DNA from: Leptospirales bacterium
Lineage (GTDB): Bacteria; Spirochaetota; Leptospiria; Leptospirales; Leptonemataceae
Reading direction: 5' to 3'
Assembly (NCBI GenBank): GCA_019694655.1
Contig: JAIBBN010000018.1
Coordinates: forward strand, 1-51,802
Length of the DNA: 51,802 nucleotides
Shown here one piece after another: positions 15,687 through 38,937 of this stretch (position 1 is its first letter; each line of letters starts with the position of its first letter). The notes under the pieces were generated by a model. It was not told the DNA's origin. It saw only the letters and a list, made by a program, of their open reading frames with translations, and did not search any database. The translations under genes were made by a program, and so were the position numbers.

Positions 15687-15710
15687 CCCTGCCGACTTGA
15701 CGGTAGTGCG

Positions 15711-36816: not shown

Positions 36817-37749
36817 TCAAGCAAGCGCTTCACGAACGGCGGCGGCGATGTTAGCGGCGCGCAGGCCGTAGTGGTCCATCAGCGCGTCCGCCGACCCGCT
36901 CTGACCGAAGGTATCGCGCATGCCAATGCGAATGACGCGAACCGGCGCTTGCTCGGAAAGCAGTTCGGCAACGGCGCCGCCCAGGCCGCCCAGGATATTG
37001 TGCTCCTCGGCAGTGATGATCAGGCCAGTCAGCTTTGCATAGCGAATCAAGAGCTCGGAATCCAGGGGCTTGATCGAGGCCATGTTGATCACTGCAGCCT
37101 CGATGCCGCCGGCCGCCAGTTCCGCGGCCGCCTGCAGCGCCTCGTGGACCATAACGCCACAGGCGACAATTGTCGCCTGCTTGCCCTCGCGCAGCACTTC
37201 GCCCTTGCCTTCGCGAAATTTGTATTCGCCGGCATGCTCAATCAGCGGCACTGCTGCGCGACCGGTGCGTACATAGCAGGGGCCTTTGATTTCAGAGAGT
37301 CGCTGTACAACCTGGATCGTCTCGTTGAAGTCCGCCGGACAGATTACGGTCATGCCTGGAATGGCGCGCATCAGTGCAAAGTCTTCGATGCACTGATGGC
37401 TGGCGCCATCCTCGCCCACTGTGATGCCGCCGTGGGAGGCGACCAGTTTTACGTTGAGGCCCGGATAAGCCACGGAATTGCGCACAATTTCCCAGGCGCG
37501 ACCGGATAGGAACATGGCAAAGCTTGAGGCAAAAGGCGTAAGACCGGAGAGCGCCAGGCCGGCAGCAACGCCAACCAGATTCTGCTCGGCCACGCCGACA
37601 TTGAAAAAGCGTTCCGGGAATTCTCTGGCAAACTTGTGCGTGCGCGTGGATTCAGAGAGGTCGGCGTCCAGAACGACGACATCCTTCCGCTCACGGCCCA
37701 GCTGGAGCAGCGCTTCTCCGTAGCCGTCGCGCGTCGCTTTTCTTTCCAG
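36817..37749 (-). CDS. transketolase C-terminal subunit, CTG start
   Basis: C-terminal half of a split transketolase (pyrimidine-binding plus C-terminal domain), about 310 residues. The catalytic Glu is E55 in GVAEQNLVG, followed by [22 protein letters not shown] and [18 protein letters not shown]. The first canonical start (GTG 37593) begins within the catalytic GVAEQ motif, which is impossible. The frame stays open upstream and reads [14 protein letters not shown], then [12 protein letters not shown], the expected N-terminus. The only start in phase with a ribosome site is CTG 37749 behind GGAGGA. No N-terminal transketolase subunit gene is in the window. metK lies 27 bp upstream. Confidence 0.85.
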
Positions 37750-37756
37750 AGTTCGG

Positions 37757-37762
37757 TCCTCC
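37757..37762 (-). promoter_or_regulatory. ribosome-binding site that places the CTG start
   Basis: GGAGGA on the minus strand ends 7 nt before CTG 37749. No ATG, GTG or TTG follows it in the transketolase frame before GTG 37593. This supports non-canonical CTG initiation. Confidence 0.6.
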
Positions 37763-37776
37763 CCGGCCCCAGTCGC

Positions 37777-38937
37777 TCAGCCCTTGAGAGCTGCGGCTTT
37801 GTCGGTGCGCTCCCAGGTGAAGGTCTCGCCGCTGCGGCCAAAATGGCCGTAGGCTGCCGTGTCCTGGTAGCGACGTCCCTTCTCGGTGAGTTGCAGGGTG
37901 CGATTGATTCCGGACGGACGAAAATCGAACACACTGCGCACGCGCTTTGCAATTTCGTCGTCAGCGATTTTTCCGCTGCCGAAGGAATCGACCATAATGG
38001 AAACGGGCTCCGGAAACCCGATCGCGTAAGAAACTTGTACTTCGCAACGATCGGCCAGTCCTGCCGCCACCACGTTCTTGGCGGCGTAGCGGCACATGTA
38101 AGCGGCGCTGCGGTCGACCTTGGAGGGGTCTTTGCCGGAGAAGGCGCCGCCGCCGTGACGACCCCAGCCGCCGTAGGTATCGACAATGATCTTGCGCCCG
38201 GTGAGGCCACAGTCGCCATGCGGGCCGCCGACCACGAACTTGCCAGTCGGATTGATCAAGTAGCGGGTGTTCTGCAGCAACTCTGCCGGCAGCACCTTCT
38301 TGATGATCTGCTCAATCATCATTTCTTCCAGCTGCTTGTGCTGCAGATTTTCGCGGTGTTGTGTTGAGACGACTACAGTGTCGATACGCGCCGGCTTGCC
38401 ATCGCGGTACTCAACAGTTACCTGGCTTTTCGCGTCCGGGAGAATGTCTTTCATCGCGCCGCTATGGCGCTGATCGGCCAGAAGGTGGAGGATGCGATGC
38501 GAAAGCGTGATCGGCATCGGCATCAATTCTTCTGTCTCGTTGATGGCAAAACCAAACATCATACCCTGGTCGCCGGCGCCCTGTTCTTTGAAGAGACCCT
38601 CGCCCTCGGTTACGCCCTGCGAAATATCCGGGGATTGTTCATGGACGCGAACCATGACCTCGGCGGTATCCGCATTGAAACCAATATCATTGTGCGTATA
38701 ACCAATCTGGCGAATCACCTGACGCGCAATCTTCTCAACATCGACGCTGCTTTTGGAGGTAATCTCGCCAGCCACGCAGCAAAAGTCGGTGGTCACCAGG
38801 GTCTCGCAGGCTACCCGGCTCTTATTATCGCCGGCCAGATAGGCATCCAGCACCGCGTCGGAGATCTGGTCGCAGACCTTGTCAGGATGGCCCTCGGACA
38901 CGGATTCGGAAGTGAATAGAAAGTTTTTCAAAGACAT
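37777..38937 (-). CDS. metK: S-adenosylmethionine synthetase
   Basis: Makes SAM from methionine and ATP. 386 residues, the family length. Signature segments are [19 protein letters not shown] near the N-terminus, [12 protein letters not shown] (ATP loop), [20 protein letters not shown], and [25 protein letters not shown] about 9 nt before ATG 38937 supports the start; the longer frame upstream is rejected. Only 68 bp separate it from the divergent lipoprotein gene, leaving no space for a typical SAM riboswitch. It heads the metK - transketolase operon. Confidence 0.96.

Follow-up and report, generated by a model that had tools for sequence, protein, structure and literature searches.

The gene for the C-terminal half of a split transketolase (tktC) follows metK in the window, i.e., the whole stretch of 51,802 nucleotides analysed here, which corresponds to contig C18 in an assembly of 3.9 Mb and 33 contigs, the sole one representing its genus. 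Leptospiraceae metagenome assemblies (L031, L032) are the closest matches that carry a name, which makes Leptospirales the most likely order of the genome. The locus comprises the following features, with the kind of support for each in brackets.

36817..37749, minus strand: tktC, coding sequence of the transketolase C-subunit, 310 aa when read from CTG (Pfam domains and alignment with relatives)
37747..37749, minus strand: proposed CTG start codon (aligned with TTG, GTG and ATG starts of relatives)
37757..37762, minus strand: Shine-Dalgarno (SD) sequence GGAGGA with a 7-nt spacer to the CTG (sequence)
37777..37779, minus strand: metK stop codon TGA, in the tktC frame and 27 nt upstream of the CTG (sequence)
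37777..38937, minus strand: metK (S-adenosylmethionine synthetase), the gene upstream of tktC (Pfam S-AdoMet_synt N, M and C)
37591..37593, minus strand: GTG, first standard start in the tktC frame, within GVAEQ and implausible as a start (sequence, alignment)
37582..37596, minus strand: GVAEQ motif, residues 52-56 (A54, E55 and Q56 invariant in the nine-protein alignment)

The tktC product matches the domain pair PF02779/PF02780, Transket_pyr with 155.5 bits and Transketolase_C with 114.7 bits (Pfam cut-offs 27 and 25.9). Its frame, ending at 36817 on the minus strand, is open back to the metK TGA at 37779-37777, which lies in the same frame and is separated from the CTG by ten codons, all open. 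Neither ATG nor GTG nor TTG occurs in this frame between the metK stop and GTG 37593, the codon for the valine of GVAEQ, 52 codons past CTG 37749; the motif has a catalytic role in transketolases. The first-pass annotation had proposed that the first in-frame ATG, GTG or TTG is this GTG and that starting there costs about 52 residues, and the frame scan agrees. The GGAGGA that it placed 7 nt from CTG 37749 is present at 37762-37757 with exactly that spacing, while no SD match was found ahead of GTG 37593. Folding of the mRNA at the tktC start is not unusual (z = +1.08).

Truncation by standard gene calling, likewise anticipated, was reproduced with an ORF lister restricted to standard starts (not a gene caller), which yields 36817-37593. 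Annotation hardly ever detects CUG starts, as gene callers usually permit only ATG, GTG and TTG. In the case of TktC, automatic annotation would drop 52 residues, which span about a third of the profile of the thiamine-pyrimidine-binding domain.

Start column and N-terminus of TktC among relatives

At the position corresponding to CTG 37749, all four genomes of the nearest genus, g2, in which tktC was found (L002, L003, L005, L006) have TTG, L012 from another genus has GTG, and L013 from a third has ATG. In each of these six relatives the start codon is followed by GAA and a lysine codon, and the first base of the column thus reads T, T, T, T, G, A as against C in the window. In L003, L006, and L012, the codon at this column is the sole standard start to be found from the upstream stop down to the conserved KATRDGYG motif. 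The first-pass annotation had also suggested aligning the 310-residue product with the C-subunits of relatives. In the resulting alignment of nine C-halves, Leu-1 of the window protein (CTG) falls on Met-1 of L003, L006, L012, and L013, and the family-type N-terminus claimed to lie upstream of GTG 37593 is common to all nine. Together with the missing standard start and the SD sequence, this correspondence bears out the claim that the C-half begins at CTG 37749. TktC of other Leptospirales genera is extended at the N-terminus, in some cases briefly and in others at length, from an upstream start of its own. L011, considered as a further tktC without a start, was rejected on the grounds that it carries a Lys-rich N-terminal extension, as do L004, L007, and L008.

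Compared with 28 relatives, codons 5-52 of tktC show proportions of differences of 0.52-0.83 at third positions (d3), 0.06-0.35 at first positions (d1), and 0.04-0.25 at second positions (d2), with an amino-acid identity of 62-90%, a pattern much like that of the rest of the gene. Since variation in this stretch is mostly confined to third positions, the part lost by a standard start is selected as protein. Many positions within the first 52 residues are invariant, among them A5-T6-R7, Y10-G11, and D28-A29-D30.

The Transketolase_N partner is encoded separately (PF00456, 191 bits, G000:C2:521019-521777; ORF L112:1483-2310, starting from ATG) and is unlinked to tktC. It is the one strong Transketolase_N match in the genome. 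As judged from their sequences, two related E1-type ORFs read as 1-deoxy-xylulose-5-phosphate synthase (DXS; L111) and homodimeric pyruvate dehydrogenase E1 (aceE; L113). With one N-half only, and the other E1-type ORFs being DXS and aceE, the split enzyme is the only transketolase detected; a second one was not found in the genome. The possibility that tktC is a pseudogene or a truncated gene was rejected on account of its codon-position constraint and the lack of another transketolase. As tktC sits directly behind metK and the N-half lies alone on another contig, the two subunits would come from different transcripts.

Probable initiation of tktC at CTG and competing explanations

The absence of a standard start, the homology of the start column, the SD sequence, the conserved N-terminus, and a single split transketolase are all read directly from the DNA, and they argue strongly for tktC as an intact, translated gene that very probably initiates at CUG, derived from an ancestral NUG start by a change of its first base. 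It would represent a rare start of an already known kind, and the case for it appears well supported. Speaking against this reading, tktC is a gene of central metabolism, in which a rare and weak start codon is unexpected. CUG accounts for 0.024% of bacterial initiation codons and supports about 0.86% of the expression obtained with AUG (PMC11497404). In favour of the reading, switches to CUG have been reconstructed elsewhere, for 2 among 61,358 ancestral AUG starts and 1 among 2,468 ancestral UUG starts (PMC5622118).

Among the competing explanations, the one that survives best, although improbable, is an error of consensus sequencing or of assembly, with T, A, or G as the actual base at 37749 and an ordinary TTG, ATG, or GTG as the start. 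A single transition separates CTG from the TTG of the four nearest relatives, and the assembly is fragmented, with 33 contigs and no other assembly for the genus. However, the remainder of the tktC frame is clean, the same genome holds further CTG-start candidates, and errors, for which a rate of 1e-5 to 1e-4 per base was assumed, are expected less often than CUG starts occur in databases. At this assumed rate, a true CUG, taken at its database frequency, would therefore be several-fold to many-fold more probable than the specific change to C. A missed indel hiding a standard start was rejected: between TTG 37841 and GTG 37694, i.e., over the 146 nt from 37840 to 37695, all three frames are free of ATG, GTG, and TTG, and a missing or extra base could therefore not reveal a standard start.

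Initiation elsewhere is less probable still. It might take place at the internal GTG 37593 or at internal CTGs such as 37710 or 37671, with a shortened product in each case, or else at a different near-cognate codon near 37749. GTG 37593 comes first among the standard starts of the frame, and weak SD-like matches precede both of these internal CTGs, but the residues that would be lost are under coding constraint and some of them are invariant (A5-T6-R7, Y10-G11); GTG 37593, moreover, lacks an SD sequence and no relative begins there. Readthrough of the metK TGA into a MetK-TktC fusion, which the shared frame and the ten open intervening codons would allow and which would make a separate start unneeded, can be given hardly any credence, given that relatives have an in-frame stop other than that of metK, or several, between the two genes, that they have their own standard start at the start column of tktC, and that a strong SD sequence precedes the CTG.

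Initiation at CUG could be accounted for as follows. In the lineage of the window, the first base of an ancestral NUG start (TTG, GTG, or ATG in relatives) would have changed to C. The GGAGGA located 7 nt upstream would position the 30S subunit on the CUG, and ribosomes terminating at the end of metK 27 nt earlier may assist initiation, in which case translation of the two genes would be coupled. The initiator tRNA would pair with U and G of the CUG and insert fMet. Expression of tktC may be lowered by this codon, which would have been kept since the strong SD sequence, and possibly the metK ribosomes too, provide enough initiation. The resulting 310-residue TktC would then join the unlinked N-half to form the only transketolase of the cell. 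An altered, M1-like initiator tRNA was considered and rejected, as the one exact match to the initiator anticodon stem-loop, GGGCTCATAACCC, keeps the three G-C pairs.

TktC resembles the split transketolase C-subunits (PF02779 + PF02780) of Leptospirales and Clostridia in length, domains, N-terminus, and the presence of a separate gene for the N-half. It differs from them in starting with CTG rather than ATG, GTG, or TTG, in the unlinked position of the N-half on C2, and in the location of tktC directly behind metK. No report of a transketolase initiated at CTG turned up in a literature search. As in the CUG-initiated bacterial genes described previously (PMC5622118), an ancestral NUG appears to have turned into CUG in a single lineage, with the protein preserved. 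In contrast to those genes, tktC is the only transketolase gene of its genome, has a strong SD sequence, and is probably not the sole gene of this kind. Starts outside ATG, GTG, and TTG that are missed by annotation are also a feature of infC (AUU/AUC) and Streptomyces sigR (GTC), and IF3 represses such noncanonical starts in the cases studied (PMC5472188). Whereas AUH or GUC codons are employed and control by IF3 has been shown in these systems, the start column of tktC varies among NUG codons. A conserved unusual codon of the infC/sigR type is not found for tktC, the start being TTG, GTG, ATG, or CTG among relatives. With the start column of relatives behind it, tktC offers a clean CUG case, and one that involves the only transketolase gene in its genome.

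Further putative unusual starts in the genome and in Leptospirales

A survey of 723 genes in 852 kb, about a fifth of the genome, scored the coding potential ahead of each gene's first standard start; the test registers start-free stretches only when they are long. The highest score was obtained for tktC (12.4), followed by hflX (11.4) and a third gene (7.8), and hflX was the only gene among the 723 with an upstream coding signal comparable to that of tktC. The same test applied to 350 kb of E. coli K-12 as a control ranked infC first (8.7), a gene with a known AUU start. The top scores in 400 kb each of the relatives G011 and G005 were 6.4 and 6.5, respectively. A reciprocal ortholog comparison with 400 kb each of G011 and G005 gave clear cases in the window genome only for tktC and hflX; many of its pairs turned out to be shadow ORFs on the antisense strand and genuine ones were scarce, so that it sets no tight bound on the use of CTG. 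An SD sequence precedes 13 of 256 upstream in-frame CTGs, as compared to 0-6.5% for other non-start codons, an enrichment that is only suggestive.

Further CTG-start candidates were encountered. The gene gspC (G000:C2:394829-395683, minus strand; L202), whose product carries a T2SSC domain, has CTG behind AGGAG, aligned with an ATG in most relatives, making it a well-supported second CTG start of this genome. In a PLD-family gene (G000:C2:12938-14137, minus strand; L184), no standard start precedes the conserved N-terminus, and the CTG overlaps the stop of the preceding gene as CTGA, which suggests a coupled CTG start. In genus g6, a hydrolase-like gene (G005:C1:357040-357870, plus strand; L291) reads AGGGGGCAGAATCTG, with AGGGGG, a spacing of 6 nt, and CTG, where several relatives have ATG. 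Three CTG candidates among the 723 genes and the one in g6 form the basis for a broader and rather unlikely reading, according to which start choice would be loose in the Leptospirales family, with CUG working as a fourth start in ~1% or more of genes and AUH starts, that of hflX for example, being retained, maybe by way of altered IF3 discrimination or an IF3-controlled gene set. It is a lead rather than a result, the ortholog comparison being too small to confirm a raised rate. With several candidates added, a lineage-wide count of CUG starts becomes feasible.

In the window genome, infC starts at ATG (L222), and an unusual infC start was accordingly rejected there. ATG or TTG is found in most of the 20 Leptospirales genomes examined for this gene (L222, L265-L283), and the classical AUU autoregulation of IF3 appears to be absent in Leptospirales. 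A search for an AUU start codon of hflX yielded no paper in the literature collection covered. The hflX frame of the window genome (G000:C1:13965-15734, minus strand; L154, start near 15692) contains no ATG, GTG, or TTG for 67 codons. Among the 27 Leptospirales loci compared (L154 and the homologs L155-L179 and L182), the start column is ATC, ATT, or ATA in 14, none of which has a standard start back to the upstream stop, 2-23 codons away. Several loci have an SD sequence before the ATH codon, e.g., TAAGGAGTTACT-ATC in L164. Judged by these alignments, hflX, which encodes a ribosome-associated GTPase, looks like a gene with a conserved infC-type AUH start, and control of this start by IF3 is possible. 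In five genomes, three of g4 and two of g3, the start column of hflX is ATG.
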